47,015 nt of DNA from Ideonella sp. A 288 (GTDB lineage Bacteria; Pseudomonadota; Gammaproteobacteria; Burkholderiales; Burkholderiaceae_C). This document shows positions 283 to 32,788 of this stretch, piece by piece (position 1 is the first letter of the stretch; each line of letters starts with the position of its first letter). The stretch spans positions 1-47,015 of the forward strand of contig NZ_MWLO01000159.1 in assembly GCF_002198735.1 (NCBI RefSeq), written 5' to 3'. The notes beneath the pieces are model-generated. The model had not been told where the DNA came from and did no database searches. It saw only the letters and a program-made list of their open reading frames with translations. Position numbers and translations under genes: made by a program.

Positions 283-348
283 CCCATATGGGCTATGACT
301 CATCCCCCATCGCGGGAATAGACGCTCCGGCGTGGCAGCGACGCTAAT
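283..348 (+). promoter_or_regulatory. tusA promoter with paired CCC...GGG dyads (shared sulfur-regulon architecture)
   Basis: Dyad 1 is CCCATATGGG (283-292), within TACCCAT, a NarL-like heptamer. Dyad 2 is CCCATCGCGGG (306-316). A -35-like TAGACG follows two bases later (319-324), then an 18-bp spacer and a -10-like GCTAAT (343-348). The same layout occurs before tauE and on both sides of the dsrA divergent region. The element may also serve soxY on the other strand, but I see no convincing -10 there. Confidence 0.6.
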
Positions 349-388
349 GTGGAGCAAAGATGGCACCATCGCCATCAAGGAGAAGAGC

Positions 389-616
389 ATGAAATTCGAC
401 AAGGAGTTCGACGCCTCCGGACTCGCCTGCCCGCTGCCCATCGTCAAGACCAAGAAGTCGCTGGCCGACATGACGCCGGGCCAGGTGCTGCGCGTGGTGG
501 CCACCGACCCCGGCTCGGTGTGCGACATGGCCGCGTTTGCCGAGCAGACCGGGCACGCCCTGCTCGAATCGGGTGAGGAAGGCGGCAAGTACGTCTTCTT
601 CCTGAAGAAGGGCTGA
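389..616 (+). CDS. tusA: TusA-family sulfur carrier protein
   Basis: This is a 75-residue cytoplasmic sulfur carrier. The diagnostic CPLP motif is present with the persulfide-forming cysteine at C14, followed by the usual helix and the DPGS turn. Length matches the family. The ATG at 389 has AAGGAGAAG about 3-10 bases upstream. An in-frame start at 332 was rejected because it lies inside the predicted promoter. In sulfur oxidisers TusA takes sulfane sulfur from rhodanese or DsrE2 partners and passes it to DsrEFH/DsrC. Here it leads an operon with dsrE2 nine bases downstream; the rhodanese gene often found with this pair is absent. Confidence 0.9.
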   Translation: MKFDKEFDASGLACPLPIVKTKKSLADMTPGQVLRVVATDPGSVCDMAAFAEQTGHALLESGEEGGKYVFFLKKG

Positions 617-625
617 GGACGCGCC

Positions 626-1093
626 ATGGCCAAGAAGATGGCGATCATCGCCACGAAGGGCGCACTGGACATGGCCTACCCGCCATTGATCCTGGCGTCC
701 ACCGCAGCGGCGCTGGGCTGGGAGGTGCAGATCTTCTTCACCTTCTACGGCCTGCAGTTGCTGCGCAAGGACCTGAGCGGCATCGCCATCAGCCCGATCG
801 GCAACCCAGCCATGCCCATGCCGGTGCCGATGCCGGTGGTGGTGGCGATGCTGCCGGGCATGGAGGCCATGGCCACGTCGATGATGAAGGCCAAGATGAA
901 GAAGAAGGGCGTGGCCTCGCTGACCGAACTGCGCGACCTGTGCCAGGAGGCCGAAGTCAAGTTCATCGCCTGCCAGATGACGGTGGACCTGTTCGACTTC
1001 TCGAAGGCCGACTTCATCGACGGCATCGAGTACGGTGGCGCGGCCACCTTCATGAAGTTCGCCGGCGAAACCGACGTCTGCCTCTTCATCTGA
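626..1093 (+). CDS. dsrE2: DsrE2-like membrane-associated sulfurtransferase (DsrE/DsrF/DrsH-like family)
   Basis: The 155-residue protein begins MAKKMAIIATKG and has the DsrE-like alpha/beta fold pattern with a hydrophobic segment (about residues 20-45) and a Met/Pro-rich stretch at 59-70 typical of DsrE2. Cysteines lie at 106, 116 (in IACQM) and 152. C116 sits where DsrE2 proteins carry the reactive cysteine. It is thought to exchange sulfane sulfur with TusA at the membrane. The gene follows tusA with a GAGGA ribosome binding site. The family is clear; the exact DsrE2 subtype is not resolved. Confidence 0.85.
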   Translation: MAKKMAIIATKGALDMAYPPLILASTAAALGWEVQIFFTFYGLQLLRKDLSGIAISPIGNPAMPMPVPMPVVVAMLPGMEAMATSMMKAKMKKKGVASLTELRDLCQEAEVKFIACQMTVDLFDFSKADFIDGIEYGGAATFMKFAGETDVCLFI

Positions 1094-1165
1094 GCGGCTG
1101 CTCGTCTGAGCAGCTGATCCCCCTCACGGCCCGCCCACGCGGCGCGGCGGACCTGGAGACGACGC

Positions 1166-2287
1166 ATGACTGCAGCCGCACCCGATCTCGCCAGCTGGGT
1201 GGTGTGGGGTGGCTTCGCCCTCGCCTTCCTGTTTGGCGCGATCGCCCACCGAAGCAACTTCTGCACGATGGGCGCGCTGTCCGACATCGTCAACATGGAC
1301 CACTGGGGCCGCATGCGCATGTGGCTGCTGGCCATTGCCGTGGCCGTGGCGGCCAGCGCGGCCTTGTCGCTGACCGGCCAGGTCGACCTGGGCAAGTCGG
1401 TTGTCCAGCGGCCGGTGCTGCCCTGGCTGTCGCTGGTCGTCGGCGGGCTCGCCTTCGGCGTCGGCATGACCATGTCCGGCGGCTGTGCCAACAAGAATCT
1501 GGTGCGGCTGGGCGGCGGCAGCGTGCGATCTCTGGTGGTGCTGGTGTTCATGGCCATTGCTGCCTACATGACGCTGAAGGGCCTGTTCGGCCAATGGCGG
1601 GCCGCGCTGCTCGACCCGGTGGCCATCGACCTGGCCGCCAGCGGATGGAAGGACCAGTCCCTGGGCACGGCTCTGGCCCGCGTGGGCGGCCTGGAGGCCC
1701 GCGCGGCACAGATCGGCGTGGCCTCGGCCGTGGTGCTGGCGCTGCTGGCCTTCAGCCTCAAGGACCGGCGCTTCCGCGCCAACCGCGTGCAAGTGGCCAG
1801 TGGCATCGCGCTCGGCCTGCTGGTGGCGGCCGGCTGGTACGTCAGCGGCCACCTGGGCTATGGCGAGAACCCCGAGACGCTCGAAACCGTGTTCCACGGC
1901 ACCAACAGCCGCACGCTCGAATCGCTGAGCTTCGTCGGGCCGACCGCCTACACGCTGGAACTGCTGATGCTGTGGACCGACAAGTCGCTGCACGCGACCA
2001 TGGGCATCGCCTCGGTGCTGGGCGTGGTGGCCGGCTCGGCGATGGTGGCGCTGGCCACGCGCAGTTTCCGCTGGGAAGGCTTCGCGTCGCTGGCCGACCT
2101 GCGCAACCAATTGATCGGCGCCGGGCTGATGGGCTTCGGCGGCGTCACGGCGCTGGGCTGTACGGTGGGCCAGGGCCTGTCGGGGATCTCGACCCTGGCC
2201 ATCGGTTCGTTCATCGCCTTGGCCGGCATCGTGGCAGGATCGGTGCTCACTCTGAAAGTCATGCTGTGGAAAATGGAACAGGAATGA
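1166..2287 (+). CDS. YeeE/YedE (TsuA-like) sulfur-compound transporter
   Basis: The 373-residue inner-membrane protein has roughly ten hydrophobic segments and two pseudo-repeated halves. Motifs conserved in thiosulfate-uptake YeeE proteins are visible: HRSNFC (C33), SGGC (C107) and LGCTVGQGLSG (C332). Such intramembrane cysteines relay thiosulfate or polysulfide by transient contacts. The size matches full-length YeeE, not the half-size pair. The position downstream of tusA and dsrE2 suggests it supplies or exports sulfane sulfur for this relay. GGAG lies upstream of the ATG, and the stop overlaps the next start. Confidence 0.85.
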   Translation: MTAAAPDLASWVVWGGFALAFLFGAIAHRSNFCTMGALSDIVNMDHWGRMRMWLLAIAVAVAASAALSLTGQVDLGKSVVQRPVLPWLSLVVGGLAFGVGMTMSGGCANKNLVRLGGGSVRSLVVLVFMAIAAYMTLKGLFGQWRAALLDPVAIDLAASGWKDQSLGTALARVGGLEARAAQIGVASAVVLALLAFSLKDRRFRANRVQVASGIALGLLVAAGWYVSGHLGYGENPETLETVFHGTNSRTLESLSFVGPTAYTLELLMLWTDKSLHATMGIASVLGVVAGSAMVALATRSFRWEGFASLADLRNQLIGAGLMGFGGVTALGCTVGQGLSGISTLAIGSFIALAGIVAGSVLTLKVMLWKMEQE

Positions 2288-11236: not shown

Positions 11237-11644
11237 TCAGACGTAGTGTCGGGTCAGGCGGCGGCGGCCGGGCACGGCGGCCTGGATGACCACACCGTGC
11301 ACGGCAGAAAGATCGTCCAGCGGCTGGTCGGGCCAGGCCGGGTTCAACGGGTGCAGCCACCAGCGCTCGCCGCGCCGCACCAGCTGGCGGAAGGTCCACT
11401 CGCCCTCGGCCTGCGCCAGCACGTAGGCGCCGTCGCGCAGCGCGCCCTCGGGCTCGATCAGCAGGATCTCGCCTTCGCTGAACTCGGGCGCCATGCTGTG
11501 GCCGATGACGCGCAGTGCGAAGGCCTCGCCACCGCTGCAGGCGGCCGCAGTGGCGTCGTCGCCGCCGCGGGCCGAGGCCTGCACGTCGTGCGCGCCGCAC
11601 CCTCCGGCCGCCACGCCGGGCCCCTTGCATGCACAACCGCTCAC
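11237..11644 (-). CDS. S24/LexA-like domain protein with a cysteine-rich N-terminus and no catalytic lysine
   Basis: The 135-residue protein starts at a GTG overlapping the upstream stop (GTGA). The first 40 residues hold cysteines at 4, 6, 16 and 36 and could bind metal or an Fe-S centre. Residues 40-125 are an S24 fold: nucleophile-type Ser50 in GHSMAPEF, then EGEILLIEP and GAYVLAQAEGEWTFRQL. In LexA the general-base lysine lies in TVKRL; the equivalent residue here is Arg86. No helix-turn-helix domain is present, unlike LexA or CI. It is therefore probably not a self-cleaving repressor but a binding or sensory relative. Confidence 0.7.
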   Translation of the reverse strand: MSGCACKGPGVAAGGCGAHDVQASARGGDDATAAACSGGEAFALRVIGHSMAPEFSEGEILLIEPEGALRDGAYVLAQAEGEWTFRQLVRRGERWWLHPLNPAWPDQPLDDLSAVHGVVIQAAVPGRRRLTRHYV

Positions 11645-13104
11645 GACAGCGTCTCCTGGAAGACCTGTGCCGCGGGCACGCCTGCGGCGCGCAGTTCGTC
11701 GCGCACCCTGTCGACGAAGGCCTCGGGGCCGGCCAGGTAGAAGTCGCAGTCGATGTCGAAGAGGTCGGCGCGGATGGCCTCGGCCACCTGTCGCGCGCCG
11801 GCCGCGGCGTCGGCCTCGCTGAACAGCGTGTACTCGAACAGGTCCAGCGCCTCCGACCAGGCCCGGCATTGGTTGGCCATGAAGTGCCCGTCGGCGCGCG
11901 TGGCCAGCCAGTACAGCGACAGCGATGGCGCCGCGTCCAGCGACAGCGCATGCTCGATCAGGCTCTTCACCGGTGCGAAGCCGGTGTCGCAGGCCACGAA
12001 CACCAGCGGCCGCTGGCCATCGGCCAGCACGAACTCGCCCACCGGGCCCCACAGCGTGACGGCGTCGCCGGGCCGCAGCGCGCCCGAGAACACCTGGGCG
12101 GCAAAGGCATCGTCGGGCTCGCGGGGCACGAAGAAGTGCAGGTTGCGGTCGTCGCAGGGGCAGCTGGCGATGGGCAGCGTGCGGCGCACGCCCGCGCCCA
12201 GCGCCAGGCCCAGCGTGACCGATTGGCCAGCCAGGAAGCGCAGCCGCTGGCTGCGCGGCGTCTGCAGGTGCAGCAGGCGGGTGTCGGGCGCCAGCTCGCG
12301 CACCGCGCGCACCTGGGTGACGAGCTGCTGCACCGGGATGTCGGCCGGACCGGCGGCCTCGAGCGACTCGAGCGTCAGCGTGCCGCTGGCGGCAGTGTGC
12401 GCACAGGCGAGCACGTAGCCCTGCGCCTTCTCGGGCTCGGACAACGGGTAGTCGGTGGCCATGGTGCGCGTGACCTGCCCGTCGATCACCCTCACCTTGC
12501 ACATGCCGCAGGTGCCGTTGCCGCAACCGTAGTTGAGCTTGAGCCCGGCGCGCATGCCGGCCTGCAGCAGCGTGTCGTGGCCCTCCACGGTGAACTGGTG
12601 GCCGCTCGGCCGCAGCGTCACCTGCGCCGACACCATCTTGAGCACATCGTCCATGACATCCAGCATGTCGACCGGTTCGGTGGCCAAGGCACGCGCCAAC
12701 CCGTCGGTCAGCTGGCGGTGCAGCGCCGCGAGGCGCGGGTCTTCGGCGGCGCCCGCCGCCAGTTGCTCGCGCAGCGCGATCACCAGCGCGTGGTAGCGCT
12801 GCAGGTGGCGTTGCACGTCGGCCAGCTCCTGGCCCTGGCTGAACAGCCGCTGCGCCAGCACCTCCTGGCTGGGCAGCAGGCGCTCGCGCACGCGGCGGCC
12901 GAAGGCCTCGTCGCGGATCTGCGCCACGCGCTCCATCAGGCCCGAGGCCTCGAGCTCGGTCTGCGGGTACAGGCGCAGCAGTGTCTCGGTGGACACCAGC
13001 CCATCGGCCAGCTCGATCTCGCCGGCGCGCACGCGCTGCTGCAGGACGCCACGCGGCACGCCCACCAGCTGTGCGGCACGCCAGACGGTCAGCCACTGGG
13101 CCAT
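11641..13104 (-). CDS. HTH-like domain fused to [2Fe-2S] ferredoxin and FAD/NAD(P) reductase
   Basis: The 487-residue protein has three parts. Residues 1-48 look like a MerR/excisionase-type helix-turn-helix (LTVWRAAQLVGVPRGVLQQR). Residues 50-145 are helical, possibly coiled coil. Residues 160-240 are a plant-type [2Fe-2S] ferredoxin with C194, C199, C202 and C234. From about 255 on there is a ferredoxin-NADP reductase-like domain with RTLPIAS for flavin and FVACDTGFAPVKS for nucleotide. It should move electrons between NAD(P)H and a partner, probably the adjacent dioxygenase. The DNA-binding-like N-terminus is unusual for this enzyme class. Confidence 0.8.
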   Translation of the reverse strand: MAQWLTVWRAAQLVGVPRGVLQQRVRAGEIELADGLVSTETLLRLYPQTELEASGLMERVAQIRDEAFGRRVRERLLPSQEVLAQRLFSQGQELADVQRHLQRYHALVIALREQLAAGAAEDPRLAALHRQLTDGLARALATEPVDMLDVMDDVLKMVSAQVTLRPSGHQFTVEGHDTLLQAGMRAGLKLNYGCGNGTCGMCKVRVIDGQVTRTMATDYPLSEPEKAQGYVLACAHTAASGTLTLESLEAAGPADIPVQQLVTQVRAVRELAPDTRLLHLQTPRSQRLRFLAGQSVTLGLALGAGVRRTLPIASCPCDDRNLHFFVPREPDDAFAAQVFSGALRPGDAVTLWGPVGEFVLADGQRPLVFVACDTGFAPVKSLIEHALSLDAAPSLSLYWLATRADGHFMANQCRAWSEALDLFEYTLFSEADAAAGARQVAEAIRADLFDIDCDFYLAGPEAFVDRVRDELRAAGVPAAQVFQETLS

Positions 13105-13140
13105 GGGCGGGTCTCGATCAGTGCCAGCGCGCCCGGCCGA

Positions 13141-14070: not shown

Positions 14071-14088
14071 GGTGGGTTCCGTTCGTGT

Positions 14089-18559: not shown

Positions 18560-18574
18560 CCAGGACGCGTCGAC

Positions 18575-18934: not shown

Positions 18935-18935
18935 C

Positions 18936-19298: not shown

Positions 19299-19306
19299 GG
19301 CGCGCC

Positions 19307-19606: not shown

Positions 19607-19635
19607 CCAGGATCATTCCCCGAAGGAGAGACCCC

Positions 19636-19968: not shown

Positions 19969-20038
19969 TCCTCCAGTCCCCGCAAGGCACGCGCGTCGAG
20001 CCCCCACGCGCAGCGCGAGCCTGCCCGAACACCCCACC

Positions 20039-20767: not shown

Positions 20768-20780
20768 GGCGCCGAACGCC

Positions 20781-22277
20781 ATGGCCACCGCCGCCTTCGA
20801 CACGCCGAAGCTCAAGCCCTACCCGGTCATCCCGCTGGTGGCCGAGGGCTCGATGGCGCACCTCAAGCCCTATGTCGCGTCGCCCAAGATCCAGGAGGCC
20901 GTGGGCTTCCCGGGCGAGCTGACCGAGGGCTGGGAGCAGCGTGCCATCGCCCGCATGGGCGAACTGCTGGGCAAGTACCGCAGCCTGCGCGTCTACATGG
21001 ACGCCTGCGTGCACTGCGGCGCCTGCTCGGACAAGTGCCACTACTTCCTGGGCACCGGCGACCCGAAGAACATGCCGGTGGCGCGGCAGGACCTGATGCG
21101 CGCGGTGTACCGCCGCTACTTCACCTTCGCCGGCAAGCACTTCCCCAAGCTGGTGGGCGCGGTGGACATGAGCAAGGACGTGCTCGACCAGTGGTGGAGC
21201 TACTACAACCAATGCTCCGAGTGCCGGCGCTGCAGCGTGTTCTGCCCCTACGGCATCGACACCGCCGAGATCACCATGGCCGCGCGCGAGATCATGGATT
21301 CGGTGGGCCTGGGCCAGAAGTACGCCAACGAGATCATCGGCAAGGTGCACCGCATCGGCAACAACCTGGGCATCCCCGGCCCCGCGCTGGAAGACACCCT
21401 GCTGGGGCTGGAGGAAGACACCAAGGAAGAGACCGGCCTGGACGTGCGCTTCCCACTCGACGTCGAGGGGGCCGAGGTGCTGCTGGTCACGCCCAGCGCC
21501 GACTTCTTCTCCGAGCCGCACGTCGAAAGCCTGATCGGCTACGCCAAGGTCTTCCACGCCGCCGGCATCAGCTGGACGCTCTCCTCGAAAGCCAGCGAAG
21601 CCGGCAACTTCGGCCTGTTCATCGGCAACTACGAGCAGATGCGCAGCATCTCGATGCGCGTGAAGGAAGCCGCGCAAGAGCTGGGCGTCAAGCGCATCGT
21701 GGTCGGCGAATGCGGCCACGCCTGGCGCGTCGCCTACAGCTTCTGGAACACGCTGATCGGCCCCTTCGACTGGCTGGACCCGCGCTACCCGGTGCCGCAG
21801 CACATCTGCGAGTTCACCTACGACCTGATCCAGCGCGGCGCGCTGAGGTTCGACAAAGAGAAGAACGACGACCGCATCATCACCTTCCACGACTCGTGCA
21901 ACGTGGCCCGCGCCTCGCGCATGGGCAGCATGCCGGGCGGCCAGTTCGTGATCCCGCGCGAGATCATCAAGGCGGTGGCCAACCGCTTCCACGACATGGC
22001 GCCGGGCACGATCCACGAATCCACCTTCTGCTGCGGCGGTGGCGGCGGACTGCTCACCGACGACCTGCTCGAGCTGCGCGTCAAGGGGGCGCTGCCGCGC
22101 ATGGAGGCGCTCAAGAGCGTCGTCGACGAGCACGGGGTGAACTTCATGGCCACCATCTGTGCCATCTGCAAGGCGCAGTTCAGCAAGGTGCTGCCGTACT
22201 ACGGCTTCAACATGAGCATGGTCGGCGGCGTGCACCAGTTGGTCAGCAAGGCGATCCGCCTTGGTGACCCCCAATAG
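20781..22277 (+). CDS. dsrK: DsrK, HdrD-like iron-sulfur subunit of DsrMKJOP
   Basis: The 498-residue cytoplasmic subunit has two ferredoxin motifs near the N-terminus (CVHCGACSDKCH and CSECRRCSVFCP) and heterodisulfide-reductase-like CCG elements, including FCCGGGGG and a final CAICKAQF, that hold the noncubane [4Fe-4S] centre. It is believed to act on the DsrC trisulfide. It follows dsrM by 13 bases and precedes an SQR-like gene rather than dsrL. Confidence 0.95.
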   Translation: MATAAFDTPKLKPYPVIPLVAEGSMAHLKPYVASPKIQEAVGFPGELTEGWEQRAIARMGELLGKYRSLRVYMDACVHCGACSDKCHYFLGTGDPKNMPVARQDLMRAVYRRYFTFAGKHFPKLVGAVDMSKDVLDQWWSYYNQCSECRRCSVFCPYGIDTAEITMAAREIMDSVGLGQKYANEIIGKVHRIGNNLGIPGPALEDTLLGLEEDTKEETGLDVRFPLDVEGAEVLLVTPSADFFSEPHVESLIGYAKVFHAAGISWTLSSKASEAGNFGLFIGNYEQMRSISMRVKEAAQELGVKRIVVGECGHAWRVAYSFWNTLIGPFDWLDPRYPVPQHICEFTYDLIQRGALRFDKEKNDDRIITFHDSCNVARASRMGSMPGGQFVIPREIIKAVANRFHDMAPGTIHESTFCCGGGGGLLTDDLLELRVKGALPRMEALKSVVDEHGVNFMATICAICKAQFSKVLPYYGFNMSMVGGVHQLVSKAIRLGDPQ

Positions 22278-22294
22278 GCCACCAGGAGACACTC

Positions 22295-23584
22295 ATGGCC
22301 CACATCGTCATCATGGGCGCCGGCATCGGCGGCATGCCCGCGGCCTACGAGATTCGAGAGAAGCTGCCCAAGGAACACAAGGTCACCGTGATCAACGCGG
22401 TGGACTTCTTCCAGTTCGTACCCTCGAACCCCTGGCTGGCGGTGGGCTGGCGCAAGGCCGACGAGCTGATGCTGAAGGTGGGCCCGCTGCTGGCGCGCAA
22501 AGGCATCGACTTCATTGCCAAGTTGGTGACCAAGATCGACCCCGAGGCCAATCGCCTGGAATTGGCCGACGGTCAGAGCGTGGGCTACGACTACCTGGTG
22601 ATCACCACCGGCCCCAAGCTCAGCTTCGCCGAAGTGCCCGGCGCAGGGCCGACGCATTCCGGCGGCGGCGGCCACACCCACTCGGTGTGCACGGTGTCGC
22701 ACGCCGAGGCCTTCTGGGCCGACTACCAGAAGTTCCTCGAGAACCCCGGCCCGGTGGTCATCGGCGCGATGCCGATGGCCAGCTGCTTCGGCCCGGCCTA
22801 CGAGTTCGCCTTCATCCTCGACACCGACCTGCGCCGCCGCAAGCTGCGCAACAAGGTGCCCATCACCTTCGTCACCAGCGAGCCCTACATCGGCCACCTG
22901 GGCCTGGGCGGCGTGGGCGACTCGAAGAGCATGCTCGAGTCGGAGATGCGCAACCGCGACATGAAGTGGATCACCAACGCCAAGACCACCAAGGTGGAGG
23001 AAGGCAAGCTGTTCACGACCCAGCTCGACGACCTCGGCAACGTGTTCAAGGAGCACGAGGTGCCGTTCAAGCTGGCGATGATGCTGCCGGCCTTCAAGGG
23101 CGTGGACGCCGTGGCCGCCGTGCCCAACCTGTGCAATCCGCGCGGCTTCGTCCTCATCGACGACTACCAGCGCAGCAAGGCCTACAAGAACATCTTCTCG
23201 GCCGGCGTGTGCGTGGCCATCCCTCCGGTGGAGGTGACACCGGTGCCCACCGGCGCGCCCAAGACCGGCTACATGATCGAGACCATGGTCACGGCGATCG
23301 TGCACAACATCGCCGACGAGCTGAACGGCAGCACCGCCAGCACCAAGGGCACCTGGAACGCGATCTGTCTGGCCGACATGGGCGACACCGGCGCGGCCTT
23401 TGTCGCGCTGCCGCAGATCCCGCCGCGCAACGTCAACTGGTTCAAGAAAGGCAAGTGGGTGCACCTGGCCAAGATTGCCTACGAGAAGTACTTCATGCGC
23501 AAGATGAAGACCGGCAACTCCGAACCGATCTACGAGAAGTACATCCTCAAGGCGCTCGGCATCATGCGCCTGACAGGCAAGTGA
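22295..23584 (+). CDS. Sulfide:quinone oxidoreductase-like flavoprotein within the dsr cluster
   Basis: The 429-residue protein has an N-terminal FAD fold (IVIMGAGIGGMPAA) and the SQR hallmark MASCFGPAYEF. Cysteines at 132, 164 and 358 correspond in spacing to the three catalytic cysteines of well-studied SQRs, so activity on sulfide or polysulfide is plausible. It lacks an export signal; a C-terminal amphipathic region (GKWVHLAKIAYEKYFMRKM) could seat it on the membrane. It replaces the usual direct dsrK-dsrL junction, with 17 and 23 base gaps. It may oxidise sulfide released by DsrAB or DsrL to feed electrons to quinone. The family is clear; the exact SQR type is not. Confidence 0.85.
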   Translation: MAHIVIMGAGIGGMPAAYEIREKLPKEHKVTVINAVDFFQFVPSNPWLAVGWRKADELMLKVGPLLARKGIDFIAKLVTKIDPEANRLELADGQSVGYDYLVITTGPKLSFAEVPGAGPTHSGGGGHTHSVCTVSHAEAFWADYQKFLENPGPVVIGAMPMASCFGPAYEFAFILDTDLRRRKLRNKVPITFVTSEPYIGHLGLGGVGDSKSMLESEMRNRDMKWITNAKTTKVEEGKLFTTQLDDLGNVFKEHEVPFKLAMMLPAFKGVDAVAAVPNLCNPRGFVLIDDYQRSKAYKNIFSAGVCVAIPPVEVTPVPTGAPKTGYMIETMVTAIVHNIADELNGSTASTKGTWNAICLADMGDTGAAFVALPQIPPRNVNWFKKGKWVHLAKIAYEKYFMRKMKTGNSEPIYEKYILKALGIMRLTGK

Positions 23585-23607
23585 CGCGTCCCACGCTGGA
23601 GAATCCC

Positions 23608-25566
23608 ATGTCCAACCCGGTAGACCACGCCCCGGCCCAGCCGCTGACCTTCCGCCGCTACAAGGACGGTGATCACAAGCCCCTGGCCTGGCAGCAGGAG
23701 ATCTTCGACGCCGACCACTCGCACAAGTGCCCCACCTACATCCAGAGCACGCCGCCCTGCCAGGGTGCGTGCCCGTCGGGCGAGGACATTCGCGGCTGGC
23801 TGAACATCGTGCGCGGCGTCGAGAAGCCGCCCGCGGGCGTGCCCTGGCAGGAGTACGCCTGGCGCCGCCTGACCGAGGCCAACCCGCTGCCGTCGGTGAT
23901 GGGCCGCGTGTGCCCGGCCCCCTGCGAATCGGGCTGCAACCGCAACCAGGTGGAAGACTTCGTTGGCATCAACTCGGTCGAGCACTTCCTGGGCGAATGG
24001 GCCATCGAGCACCAACTGGCCTTCCCGAAACCCACCGAATCCACCGGCAAGAAGGTGGCCGTGATCGGTGCCGGCCCGGCCGGTCTGTCGGCGGCCTACC
24101 AGCTGGCGCGCAAGGGCCATGCGGTGACGATCTTCGACGAGCGCGCCGAACTCGGCGGCATGATGCGCTACGGCATCCCGGGCTTCCGCACGCCGCGCAC
24201 GGTGTTGGATGCCGAGATCCAGCGCATCCTCGACCTGGGCGTGGTCACGCGCATGAACTGCCGCATCGGCACCGACGTGACGCTCGAGCAGATCCAGGCC
24301 GAGTTCGACGCCGTGTTCCTGGGCCTGGGCGCGCAGAGCGGCCGGCCGCTGCCGGTGGATGGCAGCGAGGCGCCGAACTGCGTCACCGCCACCGCCTTCC
24401 TGAAGGCCTTCAACGACGGCCGCATGCAACATGTGGGCAAGCGCGTGGTGGTCGTCGGCGGCGGCGACACCTCGATCGACGTGGCCACGGTGGCGCGCCG
24501 CCTGGGCCACATCGACCAGATCCATGAATCCGACCGGCCCGAGAACGCCATCGCCGGCTTTGCCGCGCACGACGCCGCGCTGCTGTCCAGGCGCCAGGGC
24601 GCCGAGGTCACGCTGACCTCGATCTTCGCGATCGAGAAGATGCAGGCCAGCAAGCACGAGGTCGAGCACGCGCTGGCCGAGGGCATCGCCATCCGCGGCG
24701 GCATGGCGCCGGTGGCGGTGATCCGCGACGCCGGTGGCCGCGCCACCGCACTGCGGGTGATCCGCTGCGAGGCGAAGATCGTCGGCGGCAGGCTCGACGT
24801 GAAGCAGATCCCCGGCACCGAGGAAGACATCGAGGCCGACCTCATCGTCTCGGCCATCGGCCAGGCGGTGGACTTCACCGGGCTGGAGGTGCTGAACAAC
24901 GGCAAGGGCGGCATCGCCAGCGACAAGAACTACCAGGTGCAGGGCCAGGCGGGCATGTTCGTCGGCGGCGACGTGGTGCGCCCTCACCTGCTGACAACCG
25001 CCATCGGCCACGGCGCGATCGCCGCCGACGGCATCGACCGGCACCTGCGCAGCGAGCCGCTGGACAAGCGCCCGAAGATCGACGTGCACGGCTTCGACCT
25101 CACCCGCAAGATGGTCGAGAAGGGCCTGAAGATCGGCACGATCGACCAGCCCACCTGGGGCACCGATGCCAGCCCCGGCGCGATCCACAACTACGACAAC
25201 CGCTCCGACCGCTACGTCATCCCACACAGCGAGTTGTTCCTCGGCCACTTCCAGTACACCGCGCGGCAGCGCCGCAAGATCGTCACGCTCAGTGCCGAAG
25301 AGGCGCTCTCCAACTTCGAGGAGCGCATGCTGCCGCTGCTGGAGGCGCAGGCGCAGGCCGAGGCCAAGCGCTGCATGAGCTGCGGCCAGTGCTTCGAGTG
25401 CGACAACTGCGTGGTCTATTGCCCGCAGACCGCGGTGTTCAAGGTGCCGAAAGCCAAGTCGACCACCGGCCGCTACGTCGACACCGACTACAGCAAGTGC
25501 ATCGGCTGCCACATCTGCAAGGACGTGTGCCCCACGGGCTACATCCAGATGGGGTTGGGAGAGTAG
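23608..25566 (+). CDS. dsrL: DsrL, NAD(P)H:acceptor iron-sulfur flavoprotein
   Basis: The 652-residue protein has GltD-like N-terminal clusters (CQGACPSGED, CPAPCESGCNRN), an FAD site (VIGAGPAGLSAAY), a nucleotide site (VVGGGDTSID) and a C-terminal ferredoxin domain (CMSCGQCFECDNC and CIGCHICKDVCP). This is the DsrL architecture of sulfur oxidisers, which accepts electrons from DsrAB and reduces NAD+. The ATG at 23608 was chosen; the frame stays open far upstream across the SQR-like gene, without meaning. Confidence 0.95.
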   Translation: MSNPVDHAPAQPLTFRRYKDGDHKPLAWQQEIFDADHSHKCPTYIQSTPPCQGACPSGEDIRGWLNIVRGVEKPPAGVPWQEYAWRRLTEANPLPSVMGRVCPAPCESGCNRNQVEDFVGINSVEHFLGEWAIEHQLAFPKPTESTGKKVAVIGAGPAGLSAAYQLARKGHAVTIFDERAELGGMMRYGIPGFRTPRTVLDAEIQRILDLGVVTRMNCRIGTDVTLEQIQAEFDAVFLGLGAQSGRPLPVDGSEAPNCVTATAFLKAFNDGRMQHVGKRVVVVGGGDTSIDVATVARRLGHIDQIHESDRPENAIAGFAAHDAALLSRRQGAEVTLTSIFAIEKMQASKHEVEHALAEGIAIRGGMAPVAVIRDAGGRATALRVIRCEAKIVGGRLDVKQIPGTEEDIEADLIVSAIGQAVDFTGLEVLNNGKGGIASDKNYQVQGQAGMFVGGDVVRPHLLTTAIGHGAIAADGIDRHLRSEPLDKRPKIDVHGFDLTRKMVEKGLKIGTIDQPTWGTDASPGAIHNYDNRSDRYVIPHSELFLGHFQYTARQRRKIVTLSAEEALSNFEERMLPLLEAQAQAEAKRCMSCGQCFECDNCVVYCPQTAVFKVPKAKSTTGRYVDTDYSKCIGCHICKDVCPTGYIQMGLGE

Positions 25567-25568
25567 GC

Positions 25569-25964
25569 ATGCTGCGCCGTGCCGCGCGAATCGTCGGCGC
25601 GCTGCTCCTGTGCAGCGCGGCGGCGCCGCTGTTGGCCGCCGGCGATGCCGGCCGCACGCCCCAGCCGGTGATCGAGCCGGCGCGCGCCGGCACGCAGTGC
25701 GTGGCCGACCCGGCCGTCATGCGCCGCAACCACATGGACCTGCTGAAGCACCAGCGCGACGACACCGTGCGCGGCGGCATCCGCGGTGCGAAGCACAGCC
25801 TGAAGGACTGCATCGACTGCCACGCCAGCCAGGCCACCGGCAGCGTGGCCAAGGCCGAGACCAACTTCTGCGTCAGCTGCCACAGCTACGCGGCGGTGAA
25901 GATCGACTGCTTCGAGTGCCACACCAGCAAGCCGCGCGCACTGGCGGTGGGAGCCGCCAAGTGA
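25569..25964 (+). CDS. dsrJ: DsrJ, periplasmic trihaem cytochrome c of DsrMKJOP
   Basis: The 131-residue protein has an uncleaved-type hydrophobic N-terminus (ARIVGALLLCSAAAPLLA). Three CxxCH sites lie at 81-85, 101-105 and 114-118. C44 in GTQCVADP matches the cysteine that gives one haem its unusual His/Cys ligation in DsrJ. It starts two bases after the dsrL stop, and its stop overlaps the dsrO start. Confidence 0.94.
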   Translation: MLRRAARIVGALLLCSAAAPLLAAGDAGRTPQPVIEPARAGTQCVADPAVMRRNHMDLLKHQRDDTVRGGIRGAKHSLKDCIDCHASQATGSVAKAETNFCVSCHSYAAVKIDCFECHTSKPRALAVGAAK

Positions 25965-26692
25965 GCCGCCGCGGCTTCCTCGGCGTCGCCGCCGCGGCCG
26001 TCGGTGGCGTGATGCTGGCACCGGGCATCCAGTTGATCGAGGTCGCCAGGGCTGCCGCATCGGGCACGCCTTCGGCCGGCGCCAGCGCCACGGTGCGCTG
26101 GGGCATGCTGATCGACACCACCAAGTGCGCCAGCGGCTGCACCGACTGCGTCACCGCCTGCAACACCGAGAACGGGCTCGACCCCAAGCCTTCGCCCACC
26201 TCGGCGCAGTGGATCCGCAAGGTCGAGATCAAGGAGATCAAGACCGGCCGGGCGGCATCGGTGCCGGTGATGTGCCAGCATTGCGCCGAGCCGCCCTGCG
26301 TCGACGTGTGCCCCACCGGTGCCTCGTTCAAGCGCGCCGACGGCATCGTGCTGGTCGACCGCCACAGCTGCATCGGCTGCCGCTACTGCATGATGGCCTG
26401 CCCGTACAAGGCGCGCTCCTTCGTGCACGAGGCACTCGACGCGCAGACACCCGACGTGCCGCGCGGCAAGGGCTGCGTCGAAAGCTGCACACTGTGCGTG
26501 CACCGCCTAGACCAGGGCGCCAAGACCACCGCTTGCGCCGAGGCCTGCACCAAGGCCGGCCACGGCGCCATCGTGTTCGGCGATCTCAACGATCCCGGCA
26601 GCGAGATCGCCCGCCGCGTGCGCGAGATCCAGACCACGCAGTTGCGCGCCGACCTGAAGCTCGATCCCGGCGTGCGCTACCACGGCATCTGA
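25961..26692 (+). CDS. dsrO: DsrO, periplasmic ferredoxin-like subunit of DsrMKJOP
   Basis: The 243-residue protein starts at a GTG that overlaps the dsrJ stop (GTGA). A twin-arginine signal (SRRGFLGVAAAAVGG) directs it out. Four ferredoxin-type cysteine groups follow, for example CASGCTDCVTAC, CQHCAEPPCVDVCP, CIGCRYCMMACP and CTLCVHR. It passes electrons between DsrJ and the membrane subunit DsrP. Confidence 0.94.
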   Translation: MSRRGFLGVAAAAVGGVMLAPGIQLIEVARAAASGTPSAGASATVRWGMLIDTTKCASGCTDCVTACNTENGLDPKPSPTSAQWIRKVEIKEIKTGRAASVPVMCQHCAEPPCVDVCPTGASFKRADGIVLVDRHSCIGCRYCMMACPYKARSFVHEALDAQTPDVPRGKGCVESCTLCVHRLDQGAKTTACAEACTKAGHGAIVFGDLNDPGSEIARRVREIQTTQLRADLKLDPGVRYHGI

Positions 26693-26716
26693 CAGGCTGA
26701 GCGAGCCAGACCCACC

Positions 26717-27895
26717 ATGCGCACCCCGCAAGACACCCGCAACTTCTGGACGCTCGTCGCGATCGGCGGCCTGGTCACGGCGCTCGGCCTGGGCGCGGCG
26801 CACTACATGGAACTGCACGGCCACATCGTCACCGGCATGAACAACCAGGTGGTCTGGGGGCTGCCGCACGTGTTCGCGATCTTCATGATCGTGGCCGCCT
26901 CGGGCGTGCTCAACGTGGCCTCCATCGGCTCGGTCTTCGGCCAGCCGGCCTACAAGCCGCGCGCGCCGCTGTCGGGCCTGCTGTGCATCGCGCTGCTGGC
27001 CGGCGGCCTGATGGTGCTGATGCTCGACCTGGGCCGGCCCGACCGCGTGATCGTGGCCGCCACGCACTACAACTTCAAGTCCGTCTTCGCGTGGAACGTG
27101 TTCCTGTACTCGGGCATGGTGGGCATCGTCGCGGTGTACCTGTGGACCATGTTCGAGCGCCGCTTCAACGCCTGGTCCAAGCCGGCGGGCCTGGCCGCGC
27201 TGGTGTGGCGCTTCGTGCTCACCACCGGCACCGGCTCCATCTTCGGCTTCCTGGTGGCGCGACAGGCCTACCAGTCGGCGCTGCTGGCGCCGCTGTTCAT
27301 CGTGCTGTCCTTCGGCTGGGGGCTGGCGGTGTTCCTGATCGTGCAATCGACGATGTACGCCTGGAACGGCCAGCACCTCGACGAGGCGGTGCGGCGGCGC
27401 ATGGCGCGGCTGCTGGGCATCTTCATCGCCGCGTCGCTGTACCTGGTGGCGGTGCAGCACCTCACCCACCTGTACTTCGCGCGCCAGGGGGCCTTCGAGG
27501 CCTTCATCCTTCGCGACGGCGGCCTGTACACGCTGCTGTTCTGGCTGGGCTACGTGCTGGTGGGCACGCTGCTGCCGCTGCTGCTGCTGTTCCACCCGAA
27601 GCTGGGCAGCGAGCGCGACATGCTCACCGCCGCGGCCATGGTGGTGGCCGGCGCGTTCGCCTGGCTGTTCGTCTTCATCGTCGGCGGGCAGGCCTTCCCG
27701 CTCGACATCTTCCCGGGGCACGAGGTGAGCAGTTCGTTCGGCGACGGCGTGTTGGCCGGCTACGTGCCGTCCTGGCCCGAGTTCCTGCTGGGCGTTGGCG
27801 GCCTGGGCGCGGCCTTCCTGCTGACGACCATCGGCGTGCGCATGCTCGACTTCATGCCGCAGGACGACTTCGCCGCCACCGCCGGCAAGCACTGA
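26717..27895 (+). CDS. dsrP: DsrP, NrfD-like integral membrane subunit of DsrMKJOP
   Basis: The 392-residue protein has about ten transmembrane helices and NrfD-family traits such as RPDRVIVAATHYNFKSVFAWN. It lacks obvious haem histidine pairs and is thought to exchange electrons with quinone. Gene order O-P and spacing of 24 bases match other dsr clusters. Confidence 0.93.
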   Translation: MRTPQDTRNFWTLVAIGGLVTALGLGAAHYMELHGHIVTGMNNQVVWGLPHVFAIFMIVAASGVLNVASIGSVFGQPAYKPRAPLSGLLCIALLAGGLMVLMLDLGRPDRVIVAATHYNFKSVFAWNVFLYSGMVGIVAVYLWTMFERRFNAWSKPAGLAALVWRFVLTTGTGSIFGFLVARQAYQSALLAPLFIVLSFGWGLAVFLIVQSTMYAWNGQHLDEAVRRRMARLLGIFIAASLYLVAVQHLTHLYFARQGAFEAFILRDGGLYTLLFWLGYVLVGTLLPLLLLFHPKLGSERDMLTAAAMVVAGAFAWLFVFIVGGQAFPLDIFPGHEVSSSFGDGVLAGYVPSWPEFLLGVGGLGAAFLLTTIGVRMLDFMPQDDFAATAGKH

Positions 27896-27907
27896 GGACA
27901 CCGCCCC

Positions 27908-29332
27908 ATGGACCGCCTGCTCGTCTCCGCCGCGCACAAGTCATCGGGCAAGACCACGGTGACGCTGGGCCTGGCGGCCGCGCTCACCGCGCGCGGCTGC
28001 ACCGTGCAGCCGTACAAGAAGGGCCCCGACTACATCGATCCGATGTGGCTGGGCCGCGCTGCCGGCCGCCCCTGCCTGAACCTCGACCCCTACCTGATGG
28101 AGGACGCCGCGCTCGAACGCACTTTCGTGCAGGCCACGCGCGGCGCCGACCTGGCCCTGGTGGAAGGCAACAAGGGCCTGTACGACGGGCTGGCACTGGA
28201 CGGCAGCAACAGCAATGCGGCGCTGGCGCGGCGGCTCGACCTGCCGGTGCTGCTGGTGATCGACGCGCGGGGCATGACGCGCGGCATCGCCCCGCTGATC
28301 CTCGGCTACCAGGCCTTCGACCGCCAGGTGCGCATCGGCGGCGTGGTGCTCAACCGACTGGGCGGCTCGCGCCACGAGGCCAAGCTGCGCGCGGTGATCG
28401 AGCACTACACCGATGTGCCGGTGCTGGGCGCCGTGGCCGAGGACCCGCGCCTGGCGATGACCGAGCGGCACCTCGGCCTGATGCCCTGCGCCGAGGTCGA
28501 CGACGCGCAGCTGCGCGTGCAGTCCATCGGCCGCGTCATCGGCGCGCAGGTCGATCTCGACCGCATCCGCTCGCTGGCCGCGTCGGCCGGGCCCTGGCCC
28601 GAGGCGGCGTGCGCCCCATCGCCGGCCCGCGCCCGCCGCCCCGACCTGCGCATCGGCATCGCCCGCGACCGCGCCTTCGGCTTCTACTACCCCGATGACC
28701 TGGCCGCGCTCGAGGCCGCCGGCGCCGAACTGGTGCCCATCGACACGCTGCGCGACGCGCACCTGCCGGCACTCGACGGCCTGTTCATCGGCGGCGGCTT
28801 TCCCGAGGCCTGCATGGACGCGCTGGAGGCCAACGCGGCGCTGCGCGGGGCGCTGCGCGATGCCATCGCCGGCGGCCTGCCCACCTATGCCGAGTGTGGC
28901 GGGCTGATGGTGCTGTCGCGCAGCATCACCTGGCGCGGCCGCACGGCGCGCATGGTCGGTGCCATCCCGGGCGACACGGTGATGCACGAGCGCCCGGTGG
29001 GCCGCGGCTACGTGCACCTGCAGGAGACCGGCGCCATGCCGTGGGGCGGCGGCGACGGCGCCCTGGTGCGCGGCCACGAGTTCCACCATTCCAGCCTCGA
29101 CAACCTCGACCCCAGTGTCGGCTTCGCCTACCGCGTGCGGCGCGGCCATGGCATCGACGGCCAGCACGACGGCGTGCTGGTGCACAACCTGCTCGCGTCC
29201 TACGCCCACCTGCGCACCGGCGCCGGGGCGCACTGGGCGCCGCGCTTTGTCGACTTCGTGCGCTCGCAGCGCGACCGGCGCGCGCCGGCCGCCATGCAGA
29301 CGGCCCAGGCGATGGTGGCATGCGGGGCCTGA
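27908..29332 (+). CDS. dsrN: DsrN, cobyrinic acid a,c-diamide synthase-like amidase
   Basis: The 474-residue protein is CbiA-like: P-loop AAHKSSGKTT at the start, the YKKGPDYIDP element, and a C-terminal glutamine amidotransferase domain with YAECGGLMVL. In sulfur oxidisers it is proposed to amidate sirohaem for DsrAB. It directly follows dsrP and precedes a second DsrC-like gene and cobA, consistent with a cofactor role. Confidence 0.93.
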   Translation: MDRLLVSAAHKSSGKTTVTLGLAAALTARGCTVQPYKKGPDYIDPMWLGRAAGRPCLNLDPYLMEDAALERTFVQATRGADLALVEGNKGLYDGLALDGSNSNAALARRLDLPVLLVIDARGMTRGIAPLILGYQAFDRQVRIGGVVLNRLGGSRHEAKLRAVIEHYTDVPVLGAVAEDPRLAMTERHLGLMPCAEVDDAQLRVQSIGRVIGAQVDLDRIRSLAASAGPWPEAACAPSPARARRPDLRIGIARDRAFGFYYPDDLAALEAAGAELVPIDTLRDAHLPALDGLFIGGGFPEACMDALEANAALRGALRDAIAGGLPTYAECGGLMVLSRSITWRGRTARMVGAIPGDTVMHERPVGRGYVHLQETGAMPWGGGDGALVRGHEFHHSSLDNLDPSVGFAYRVRRGHGIDGQHDGVLVHNLLASYAHLRTGAGAHWAPRFVDFVRSQRDRRAPAAMQTAQAMVACGA

Positions 29333-29729: not shown

Positions 29730-30581
29730 ATGAACTCGTTCGTCGACATGCCCGCGATGATGGCCGCCTGCCGCGCCAGCTGCGGCACCGTGCACCTGGT
29801 GGGCGCCGGCCCCGGCGACCCCGAACTGCTGACGCTGCGCGCCGCGCGCCTGCTGGCCCAGGCCGACGTGGTGGTGTACGACCACCTGGTCGGCCCCGAG
29901 GTGCTGGCGCTGATCGGCGCGCAGGCCGAGCGCCGCTACGTCGGCAAGGAGCGCAGCCACCACAGCCTGGCGCAGGACCAGATCAACACGCTGCTGGTGC
30001 GGCTGGCGCGCGAAGGCCGGCGGGTGGTGCGGCTGAAGGGCGGCGACCCCTTCGTCTTCGGCCGCGGCGGCGAAGAACTGCAGGTGCTGGCCGCCGAGGG
30101 CGTGCCCTTCGAGGTGGTGCCCGGTGTCACCGCAGCCTGCGGCGTGGCCAGCTACGCCGGCATCCCGCTGACGCACCGCGACTTCGCCCAGAGCTGCACC
30201 TTCGTCACCGGCCACCTGAAGGACGGCAGCTGCGACCTCGACTGGCCGATGCTGTCGCGCCCGCGGCAGACGGTGGTGATCTACATGGGCCTCGGCGGCC
30301 TGGCCGAGATCTGCGCGCAACTGGTGGCGCACGGCGCGCCGGCCACCCTGCCGGCGGCGGTGGTGCAGCAGGGCACCCTGGCGCAGCAGCGCGTGGTGGC
30401 CGCCACGCTGGACGACCTGCCGGAGCGCGTGCTCGAGGCCGGGCTGAAGTCGCCCTGCCTGGTGATCGTGGGCGAGGTGGTGCGCCTGCGCGAGCAACTG
30501 GCGTGGTTCGAGCCGGCCGGCGCGGTCGCACCCGCGGAGGCGACCGCGGACATGACCGCGGACGCGTCCTTCAGCGGCTAG
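29730..30581 (+). CDS. cobA: Uroporphyrinogen-III C-methyltransferase (sirohaem synthesis)
   Basis: The 283-residue SAM-dependent enzyme makes precorrin-2, the first step to the sirohaem of DsrAB. Family signatures are [45 protein letters not shown] and [17 protein letters not shown]. It is a stand-alone SUMT without the CysG dehydrogenase/ferrochelatase part. It is the last plus-strand gene of the dsr block; its final 11 bases overlap the end of the convergent response-regulator gene. Confidence 0.93.
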
Positions 30582-31296
30582 GCCGGGCGTTGTGGCTGGA
30601 GGCGTCGCCCGCCACCCGCGCTTCCACCGCAAACACCGCGGCTTCGACCCGGCTGCTCAGGTGCAGCTTGCCCAGGATGTGGCGCACGTGCAGCTTCACG
30701 GTGTCGTGGCTGATGTCGAGCGTGCGCGCGATGGCCTTGTTGCTCTCGCCGCGGGCCAGGTGCTCGAGGATCTCGCGCTCGCGCTCGGTCAGCGTGCTGA
30801 TCAGGCCGCGCCGGTCGGGGCTGCGGCTGTCGGGTTGCAGCAGCTGCGCCAGCTTCAGCGTCATCTGCGGCGCCACCACCAGCTCGCCGCGTGCGGCGCG
30901 CGCGATGGCGCCCATGATCTCCACCGGGTCCATGTCCTTCAGCAGGTAGCCGCGCACCCCGGCGCGCAGCGCGGCCGACAGGTCGGCCTCGGCATCGCTC
31001 ATCGTCAGGATGAGCGCCGGCGTGGCGATGCCTTCGGTGCGCACGCGGCGCAGCAGGCTCAGGCCGTCGGTGGTGGGCATGCGCAGGTCGAGCACCAGCA
31101 GGTCGGGCTCGTGCTCGCGCAGCACAGGCACCAGTTGCTCCGGGTCGCCCAGCGCGGCCACCACGTTCATGTGGCCGCGGTGCTGCAGCAGGTCGGACAG
31201 GCCGCTGCGGCACAGCGCGTGGTCGTCCACCAGCACCACCTTGATCGGCGGCTCCTGGCCCGTCAGGCCGGCCATGCCGGGCAGGCTGTTGCTCAT
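30571..31296 (-). CDS. NarL-type response regulator
   Basis: The 241-residue protein has a receiver domain (D24, D25, phospho-acceptor D70, K120) and a LuxR/NarL helix-turn-helix at about 168-225. The recognition region [22 protein letters not shown] is very close to that of E. coli NarL, including the two basic residues and the Val/Leu that contact TACYYMT heptamers. Its start overlaps the stop of the kinase gene (ATGA). TACCC-type dyads occur in front of tusA, dsrA, the accessory operon and tauE, making this the likely regulator. Its C-terminus overlaps cobA by 11 bases in convergent orientation. Confidence 0.9.
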
Positions 31297-32537
31297 GGCG
31301 CCCCCGGGGCAGGAAAGCCGACCGCGACCACCGTGCCGCCGCCCTCGCGGGGCCGCACCGCGAGCGCGCCACCCAGCCGTCGCGCGCGCCCGGCCATGAT
31401 CTCGAGCCCATGGTGGCCGGGCTCGGCCGGCAGCGGGCCGAGGCCGATGCCGTCGTCCTCGATGCGCAGTGTCACCTGGCCGGCCTCGGCCGACAGCCGC
31501 AGCCAGGCCTGCCGCGCCCGGGCGTGTCGGGCGATGTTGGACAGCGCCTCGCCAACGATGTGCAGCACCTGCGCCTCGTGCGCGGCCGGCAGCGCCAACG
31601 CCGGCAGGTCGTTGGTCAGCGCCACCGCGATGCCGCTGCGGCGGCTGAACTCGTCGGCGCGTTCGGCCAGGGCGTGGGCCAGCCCGCGCGGATCGGGCGG
31701 GGTGCGGAAGTCGGTGATGATCTCGCGCAGGCTGCCGTGGGCATGGCCCAGCGCCTGCTTCAGGTCAACCAGGTAACGGGTCGTCAGCGCGCCGTTGTGT
31801 TCGCCGATGGCCTGCTCCAGCAGGGGCAGGCGCATGCGCAGGAAGGCCAGGTCTTGTGCCACGGCGTCGTGCACCTCGGCGGCCATGCGCTGCCGCTCTT
31901 GCAGCACGGTGGCGCGCAGGTTCTCGGCCTCGAGGCGGGCGTTGTGCAGCGCCAGGCCCAGCAGCGTGCCGATCGAGCGCAGCACCGCGCGCACCTCGGC
32001 CGACGGGCCGGTGGCGGCATCGAAGAACAGGTTGTACACGCCCAGCACCTGGCCACGGTGGTCCAGCGGCACGGCCAGCATGTGGGCCCAGCCCAGAGGC
32101 ACCAGCACGTCGCGGGCCGCGCCGTCGCAACCGCTCAGGCCGGTGTCCCAGGCCAGCCGGTCGCTGTCGACGGCCTGGCCGCAGCCGCCGCAGTGCCGGT
32201 GCACCGACGGCCCGGCGCAGCCCAGTTGCGCCGGCAGGCCGAGCTGGCTGACCAGGCGCAAGCGGTCGTCGTCGCACAGCATGCGCACCGCGCCGGCGCG
32301 GGCATGGGCCAGCTGCACGATGGGCTCGAGGAAGTGGCCCAGCAGCGCCCGGATGTCGGCGCCGGTGGAGAGGTCGGCCGTGATCTCGGCCAGCAGTCCG
32401 GCCGCGACGCCGCCGGCCGTAGGCAGGGCGGCCGTGGACGGGGCAGGCAGGGCGATGGTGGCGGTGTCGGGCATGGGATGGCAGGCGGGGCGAAGGCGCC
32501 CAGGCAAATTGAAACCGACATCGGCCGCGAGCGCCAT
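31293..32537 (-). CDS. Soluble NarX-type histidine kinase with a cysteine-rich GAF domain
   Basis: The 414-residue protein has a GAF-like domain (about 60-205), a HisKA_3 dimerisation region with phospho-acceptor His223 in MAAEVHDAVAQDL, and an HATPase domain ending near GHHGLEIMAGRARRLGG. No transmembrane segment is evident, so it senses a cytoplasmic signal. Cysteines at 88, 107, 116, 119 and 137 cluster in the GAF part (HRHCGGCG) and could bind Fe-S, zinc or react with persulfide. The ATG at 32537 has AAGGGAG eight bases upstream; a later in-frame ATG is possible. Confidence 0.88.
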   Translation of the reverse strand: MALAADVGFNLPGRLRPACHPMPDTATIALPAPSTAALPTAGGVAAGLLAEITADLSTGADIRALLGHFLEPIVQLAHARAGAVRMLCDDDRLRLVSQLGLPAQLGCAGPSVHRHCGGCGQAVDSDRLAWDTGLSGCDGAARDVLVPLGWAHMLAVPLDHRGQVLGVYNLFFDAATGPSAEVRAVLRSIGTLLGLALHNARLEAENLRATVLQERQRMAAEVHDAVAQDLAFLRMRLPLLEQAIGEHNGALTTRYLVDLKQALGHAHGSLREIITDFRTPPDPRGLAHALAERADEFSRRSGIAVALTNDLPALALPAAHEAQVLHIVGEALSNIARHARARQAWLRLSAEAGQVTLRIEDDGIGLGPLPAEPGHHGLEIMAGRARRLGGALAVRPREGGGTVVAVGFPAPGAP

Positions 32538-32553
32538 CGGTTTTCTCCCTTGG

Positions 32554-32567
32554 TACCCCTGATGGTA
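32554..32567. promoter_or_regulatory. NarL-like dyad just before the kinase gene
   Basis: TACCCCTGATGGTA forms TACC-N6-GGTA and contains the heptamer TACCCCT. It ends about 17 bases before the kinase ATG, next to the ribosome binding site, so a bound regulator would repress or autoregulate rather than activate. It is a short motif and could be chance. Confidence 0.35.
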
Positions 32568-32721
32568 TCCCGGTTTCGGCGATCGAGGTGATCATGATCA
32601 ATTCGCCGGCGCGCCGGCCGGTCCGCCGGCGCCGTGGCGGCGGGCGCGGCATGGCGATGAAGCCCGAATGGTCGCGCGCGTGGCAGGGCACGCCGGCCGA
32701 GCCGGGGTGGCACGGACATCC

Positions 32722-32788
32722 CCCATTTGGGCTACAGGGGCATCACCCGTCACGGGAATGGACGCTGGCCTCGGCGGCTGCGCCTAAT
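32722..32788 (+). promoter_or_regulatory. tauE promoter with paired dyads (shared sulfur-regulon architecture)
   Basis: Dyad 1 CCCATTTGGG (32722-32731), dyad 2 CCCGTCACGGG (32746-32756, a perfect 11-bp palindrome), two bases, TGGACG (32759-32764), an 18-bp spacer and CCTAAT (32783-32788). The run GGGAATGGACGCT is almost identical to the tusA promoter. The 32538-32910 gap holds this promoter, the kinase leader and an untranslated leader of about 116 nt; no gene is seen in it. Confidence 0.6.

Follow-up and report, generated by a model that had tools for sequence, protein, structure and literature searches.

In this article, we discuss how sulfur oxidation may be controlled in a 47,015-bp stretch of DNA, the entire contig NZ_MWLO01000159.1 from the 6.98-Mb genome of Ideonella sp. 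A 288 (order Burkholderiales), hereafter the window. The reverse Dsr pathway is a main sulfur-oxidation route in many sulfur bacteria, and NCBIfam and Pfam models place a sulfur-oxidation cluster, dsrABEFHCMKLJOPN, on the contig (matches to the DsrM, DsrJ and DsrP models fall below their cut-offs), together with extra DsrC-like genes, a tusA-like gene, dsrE2, a YeeE-type transporter, a TauE-type exporter, and a NarL-like response regulator and histidine kinase (Table 1). The minus-strand genes at 11641-15200 probably form a single operon with the DUF6967 and Cas6-family genes, referred to below as the accessory operon. We consider it probable, at roughly four chances in five, that the regulator and kinase are a NarX/NarL-derived pair that binds dyads of the CCC...GGG type and activates Dsr-type sulfur oxidation on a sulfur or redox signal from inside the cell.

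The window contains 57 CCCN4-6GGG dyads, and pairs of them with centres 22.5-25.5 bp apart occur at three places only (283/306, 15998/16022 and 32722/32746), the same regions in which the first-pass annotation had described dyads about 24 bp apart. At tusA, the accessory operon and tauE the sequence also reads as that annotation had it, with TRGACG two bases after GGG, an 18-bp spacer and a -10-like hexamer. These three promoters share CCCN5GGGWATRGACGC, which has three exact matches in the genome, all of them at these promoters, no match with one mismatch and 21 with two; since the reversed pattern yields 39 matches in the same genome and mismatch range, the two-mismatch matches are background. 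The arrangement bears on the direction of control, which sequence cannot tell by itself, and the known sulfur regulators SoxR and sHdrR of Hyphomicrobium are ArsR-type repressors of Sox and sHdr sulfur oxidation, as described in the accessible part of PMC12423496. It is nevertheless very unlikely that the regulator represses from these sites, given the position of the dyads ahead of the -35, with two bases between it and the downstream dyad, and the poor hexamers and 18-bp spacer, which would be expected of activated promoters. As separate observations, within 15957-15971 (minus strand) 6-7 bases separate the accessory -10 from the ATG at 15959, so that the transcript would be leaderless if that start is right, and a degenerate dyad, GGTACCCCTGATGGTATCCCGG, at 32552-32572 just upstream of the kinase gene could possibly serve autoregulation.

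The idea that all four promoters share one architecture, dsrA at 15997-16063 being the fourth, holds for tusA, the accessory operon and tauE and fails for dsrA, whose promoter had been misplaced: the sequence after the dyad (TAGTGCCGG...) departs from the composite. Expectation maximization (EM) on the sequence after the dyad in 66 loci returned CC, 4-5 bases and GGaatGATGG, with only a weak -10, and this block is not shown by the f38 genomes. Since the block aligns in the window at 16068-16112, the dsrA promoter is re-assigned there, around a third dyad some 46 bp downstream. Of 68 loci, 50 have a loose -35-like pattern after the dyad; the figure for shuffled sequences is 16.1.

Table 1. Genes and predicted promoter elements of the window
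Feature	Position	Strand	Remarks
tusA promoter, upstream dyad TACCCATATGGGCTA	281-295	+	sequence; rarity of dyad pairs in window
tusA promoter, downstream dyad CCCATCGCGGG	306-316	+	same promoter before tusA in relatives
tusA promoter, -35-like TAGACG	319-324	+	18-bp spacer
tusA promoter, -10-like GCTAAT	343-348	+	
tusA-like gene	389-616	+	TusA model 58.9 bits, below cut-off 78
dsrE2	626-1093	+	after tusA-like gene; DsrE2 model 288.4, above cut-off 210
YeeE-type sulfur transporter	1166-2287	+	PF04143
2Fe-2S/FAD reductase, accessory operon	11641-13104	-	
TauD-like, accessory operon	13141-14070	-	
Unknown gene, accessory operon	14089-14718	-	
DsrC-like, accessory operon	14751-15200	-	
Cas6-family protein, accessory operon gene 2	15118-15747	-	start uncertain
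DUF6967 protein, 71 aa, accessory operon gene 1	15744-15959	-	
Accessory-operon promoter	15966-16034	-	dyads 16022-16032 and 15998-16008
Accessory-operon promoter, -35-like TGGACG	15995-15990	-	18-bp spacer
Accessory-operon promoter, -10-like CTCAAT	15971-15966	-	
Dyad TACCCCTTTCGGGTA upstream of dsrA	16020-16034	+	element conserved across order
Re-assigned dsrA promoter, dyad TACCCCTCCCGAGGG	16068-16082	+	block common to relatives
Re-assigned dsrA promoter, -35-like ATGGCG	16083-16088	+	18-bp spacer
Re-assigned dsrA promoter, -10-like CAACAT	16107-16112	+	
dsrABEFHCMKLJOPN	16178-29332	+	dsrA start taken at 16178
NarL-family response regulator	30571-31296	-	PF00072, PF00196
Histidine kinase	31293-32537	-	no membrane stretch; GAF (cysteine cluster), HisKA_3, HATPase_c
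tauE promoter	32722-32788	+	dyads 32722-32731 and 32746-32756; same promoter in relatives
tauE promoter, -35-like TGGACG	32759-32764	+	18-bp spacer
tauE promoter, -10-like CCTAAT	32783-32788	+	
TauE/SafE sulfite exporter family protein	32911-33846	+	PF01925

Conservation of the motif upstream of orthologous operons had been set as one test that could refute the proposal, and the motif is indeed conserved before dsrA, tusA-dsrE2, tauE and other sulfur genes. The case of dsrA was followed through 87 loci, the window included, drawn from 83 of the 87 genomes of the order that have dsrA (G014, G161, G261 and G273, which yielded fragments only, were excluded, and so were additional second copies in several genomes). 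Allowing one mismatch (9 of 10 matches), TACCC-N4/5-GGGTA occurs within -450 to +60 of dsrA at 68 of these 87 loci, where about 0.9 would be expected from the 33 matches in 1,592,010 bp elsewhere in the same loci, and 1.6 from Markov resampling (maximum 6 in 20 resamplings). Gaps of 4 and 5 dominate, with 32 and 53 loci against 8 or fewer for any other gap, and the dyad is seen in 18 of 20 families. De novo EM on -275 to +20, random starts included, found the same dyad with a G-rich block upstream and CC downstream, and in 73 rows aligned on the dyad the same flanking positions stand out as traces of flanking dyads one spacing away. An earlier EM run on -450 to +30 had picked up conserved coding sequence of the divergent gene, after which the range was narrowed; the strict paired CCCN4-6GGG was likewise set aside as a general motif, being found in only 11 of 81 dsrA upstream regions. 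The conserved dsrA element is the relaxed dyad and not the strict pair. Where two dsrA copies were fetched from one genome (G243, G331 and G358; locus pairs L092/L101, L098/L108 and L094/L111), the dyad at 9 of 10 stands before one copy only.

An inverted repeat may also be read as an RNA hairpin, here one that the Cas6-like protein encoded beside dsrA would handle, and a gene of the Cas6 family runs divergently from dsrA at 74 of 86 loci of the order. We give this reading almost no chance: dyads are also found at promoters far from the Cas6-like gene, and since they lie upstream of the promoters that they accompany, they would fall outside those transcripts.

The regulator resembles NarL over its whole length (best solved match 1a04, 8.1e-44), and it has the receiver (PF00072) and GerE/LuxR helix-turn-helix (PF00196) domains of the NarL/FixJ family, with D24, D25, D70, T98 and K120 invariant in 10 aligned relatives. 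Its score with the NCBIfam NarL model is 210.9 bits, under the equivalog cut-off of 250. The recognition helix is VKLHVRH where NarL has VKVHVKH, a near-identity that had been pointed out beforehand. The accompanying suggestion that the half-sites match that of NarL stands in part: the NarL motif consists of TACYYMT heptamers in a 7-2-7 site, a 16-bp palindrome, and TACYYMT is matched partly, with the order's gap optimum giving dyads that span 14-15 bp; outside the order the site is a 16-bp palindrome, TAYCCC-N4-GGGRTA.

Considering next which genomes carry the regulator, its scores within the order show a sharp gap, from 1.5e-62 to 7.9e-51, and place it in 83 of 399 genomes, the window's included, with dsrA in 87: both are present in 82, the regulator alone in 1 (G351, 66% complete), dsrA alone in 5 and neither in 311, and in 42 genomes the regulator lies within 30 kb of dsrA. 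Among the five dsrA-only genomes, G241 and G271 have a 48-49% relative about 13 kb from dsrA, G201 and G256 have matches of only 44% and 42%, located elsewhere, and G197 has none at E-value 1e-30. The last three genomes have dsrA and its dyad with no close regulator, and would be expected if another factor bound the dyads, for instance an unlinked NarL paralogue or DsrC as a DNA-binding protein (Grimm et al. are said to have reported a regulatory role for DsrC in Allochromatium vinosum in 2010), with the linked pair controlling something else. We regard such a factor as quite unlikely in view of the co-occurrence and position of the pair, the half-sites resembling the NarL heptamer and the NarL-like recognition helix.

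Outside the order, a sample of 368 genomes of the class (in which three genomes of the order besides the window's are included) gave both regulator and dsrA in 72 at E-value 1e-50, the regulator only in 14, dsrA only in 40 and neither in 242, and position weighs more here than co-occurrence because generic NarL paralogues score nearly as high. In 37 of the 40 cases with both genes within 40 kb on one contig, the regulator lies downstream of dsrA on the same strand at a distance of 13.2-22.3 kb. The upstream regions of these 37 and of 3 more dsrA genes (40 of the 79 places listed) were searched for TAYCCC-N4-GGGRTA. Once 2 that were too short had been set aside, 26 of the remaining 38 had the site, one mismatch being allowed, compared with 0.6 for Markov controls; this half-site was picked post hoc after viewing the sequences and is guarded by these controls and by six gap settings, of which gaps of 1, 2, 3 and 5 give 0 and a gap of 6 gives 5. 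TACCC/GGGTA as the site outside the order was rejected, with 1 of 38 only. The regulator is tied to dsr by phylogenetic profile and position, less tightly outside the order than within it.

The composite promoters lead to further targets. Aligning the regulator gave the best 80 of 377 named loci (Rubrivivax, Ideonella, Piscinibacter, Azohydromonas, Leptothrix, Ramlibacter, Sulfuricella, Thiobacillus and metagenome-assembled genomes), and core dsr genes are found at 50 of these 80 and at 38 of the 47 longer than 15 kb; Ramlibacter lithotrophicus, Azohydromonas sediminis and Rubrivivax albus are cultivable relatives in which the locus is present. With one mismatch allowed, the 80 loci hold 22 composites and their reversed sequence 1; with two allowed, the counts are 46 and 9. 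Each of the 22 is found 69-238 bp ahead of the point where homology to a sulfur-gene target begins (soeA-like 13, tauE 3, CMD-Rieske 3, tusA 2 and sat 1), and 38 of the 46 precede those five gene types, with 2 before the kinase and 6 without an identified target. The same site thus stands before sulfur genes that are not homologous to one another, as expected of a Dsr-linked regulon. The tauE and tusA queries came from the window; those for the soeA-like, sat and CMD-Rieske genes were taken from what lay downstream of the sites (L178, L214 and L212 match themselves), and these three targets were therefore not predicted beforehand. The label soeA-like is our own, for molybdopterin oxidoreductases whose best NCBIfam model is PhsA, below its cut-off; Sat is above its cut-off. 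The extended promoter pattern was found 15 times, in 11 of the 80 genomes with dsrA; the 80 genomes lacking dsrA gave no site, and the reversed pattern had no match. Of the 15 sites, 10 precede tusA-dsrE2, 2 tauE and 1 a soeA-like gene, while the other 2 are next to the kinase without an identified target. The full composite promoter form is limited to a few families, and the dsrA dyad is wider.

The signal has to be sought in the kinase, whose counterparts in relatives were identified by phmmer. All 30 loci compared within the order have a kinase frame ahead of the regulator, and in 28 the frame ends within 40 bp of it (L040 counted after correction for its shorter flank), the others, L038 and L048, ending about 240-265 bp before it; outside the order the kinase adjoins the regulator in 16 of 16 loci, chosen among those with the regulator near dsrA. 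The window kinase combines a GAF domain with the transmitter modules of NarX and NarQ, HisKA_3 (PF07730) and HATPase_c (PF02518), and the NarQ model scores 150.4 bits over the transmitter, below the whole-protein cut-off of 553. As judged from hydropathy only, 29 of 30 kinases in the order have no transmembrane stretch, and outside it 12 of 16 have a pair of stretches close together, 1 a single stretch and 3 none. With membrane stretches absent or closely spaced there is no room for a large periplasmic domain, and the layout of NarX and NarQ, in which two helices flank such a nitrate-binding domain, is not seen. In the cytoplasmic GAF region, cysteines are found in the order at positions 116 (29/30), 119 (30/30), 137 (29/30) and 150 (26/30), and a CxC motif occurs in 12 of 16 kinases outside it.

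Could the regulator bind these sites and still answer to nitrate, nitrite or oxygen, matching sulfur oxidation to the electron acceptor instead of to sulfur supply? The nearest named families are NarL and NarX/NarQ, and NarX itself has a cysteine cluster. The membrane predictions above speak against it, and A. vinosum is described, in the part of PMC3368242 available, as having NarX/NarL, possibly the same pair as the window's, without obvious nitrate reduction genes; on balance we hold this alternative to be unlikely. The proposal of the first-pass annotation that the pair serves sulfur oxidation and not nitrate is, in turn, supported by motif conservation, by co-occurrence and position, and by a kinase without a periplasmic sensor (from hydropathy and domain content).

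In the NarX/NarL-derived mechanism that we favor, the kinase, as kin of NarX and NarQ without the periplasmic nitrate part, would sense inside sulfur supply or redox state through its GAF cysteine cluster, presumably by way of a reduced-sulfur species, and would phosphorylate the regulator encoded beside it. Dimers of the regulator would then occupy the predicted sites about 24 bp apart, the downstream dyad abutting a poor -35, and may recruit RNA polymerase from a class-II-like position with a contact at the -35. Predicted targets in the window are tusA-dsrE2, the DUF6967/Cas6-like accessory operon, dsr and tauE, to which soeA-like, sat and CMD-Rieske genes would be added in relatives. Several observations weigh against this mechanism. 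No dyad at 9 of 10 matches is found at 19 of the 87 dsrA loci, the extended promoter is absent from 69 of the 80 dsrA-positive genomes, and the 6 composites without a target are part of the 46; no site was found upstream of the window genome's own soeA-like gene. The three genomes with a dyad and no close regulator count here as well, as do the 40 dsrA-positive genomes without the regulator and the 14 with a match and no dsrA outside the order, and the co-occurrence counts ignore kinship. As to the sensor, position 150, the fourth conserved cysteine, is a Trp in the window kinase, and 4 of 16 kinases outside the order have no CxC (it is missing in L324 and L326, and the short kinases L334 and L335, whose genomes measure about 1.1 Mb, have no visible GAF region).

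How does the pair compare with systems already described? With Escherichia coli NarX/NarQ-NarL/NarP it shares a NarL-like regulator, a NarQ/NarX-like transmitter and half-sites resembling TACYYMT, and it differs in a regulator below the NarL cut-off, a kinase without a large periplasmic sensor, genes beside dsr, half-sites that are closer in this order and sulfur-gene targets. It is a pair of the NarX/NarL kind with the same output and transmitter modules and a different sensor, site spacing and set of targets. SoxR and sHdrR also control sulfur oxidation genes, and SoxR senses through cysteines (PMC12423496, in the portion available), but both are single-protein repressors of another fold that act on Sox and sHdr and not Dsr genes, without a two-component system. 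The A. vinosum dsr promoter is induced by reduced sulfur according to the available part of PMC10386293, which names no regulator, whereas a candidate regulator and a predicted site are given here; this induction and the NarX/NarL of A. vinosum would both agree with the proposed mechanism. PMC4136832 concerns a sulfur oxidiser whose dsr genes are dsrABEFHCMKLJOPNRS; its accessible text counts NarL/NarX as one of the systems with a possible relation to virulence and draws no link to dsr. In the literature covered (titles and abstract openings, with most subscription journals outside), no NarL-type or other named dedicated two-component regulator of dsr was found.

A broader proposal, to which we would give somewhat less than even odds, is that the pair is a general master regulator of reverse-Dsr oxidation across the Gammaproteobacteria, broadly defined. 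The pair would then have branched from the nitrate system long ago, lost its nitrate-sensing part and come to detect sulfane sulfur or a persulfidated carrier by means of the GAF cysteine cluster, and the A. vinosum NarX/NarL would be the same system. A conserved pair with predicted dsrA sites (68/87 in the order and 26/38 outside) opens the regulator gap to direct experiment, lets regulons be predicted in symbionts and in sulfur oxidisers that have not been cultured, and suggests a way for a nitrate-type system to be turned to an inside signal.

Two neighbors of the dsr genes deserve mention in their own right, beside the DUF6967 gene that is present at 71 of 86 loci of the order. The Cas6-family protein at 15118-15747 (minus strand) is matched by PF09559 with 164 bits and by the PADLOC Cas6 model at 1e-48, so that a family of CRISPR RNA-processing proteins is represented in sulfur-oxidation operons. 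Between dsrK and dsrL lies an extra flavoprotein at 22295-23584, the best NCBIfam model for which is type III sulfide quinone reductase at 108.4 bits, below the cut-off of 525.

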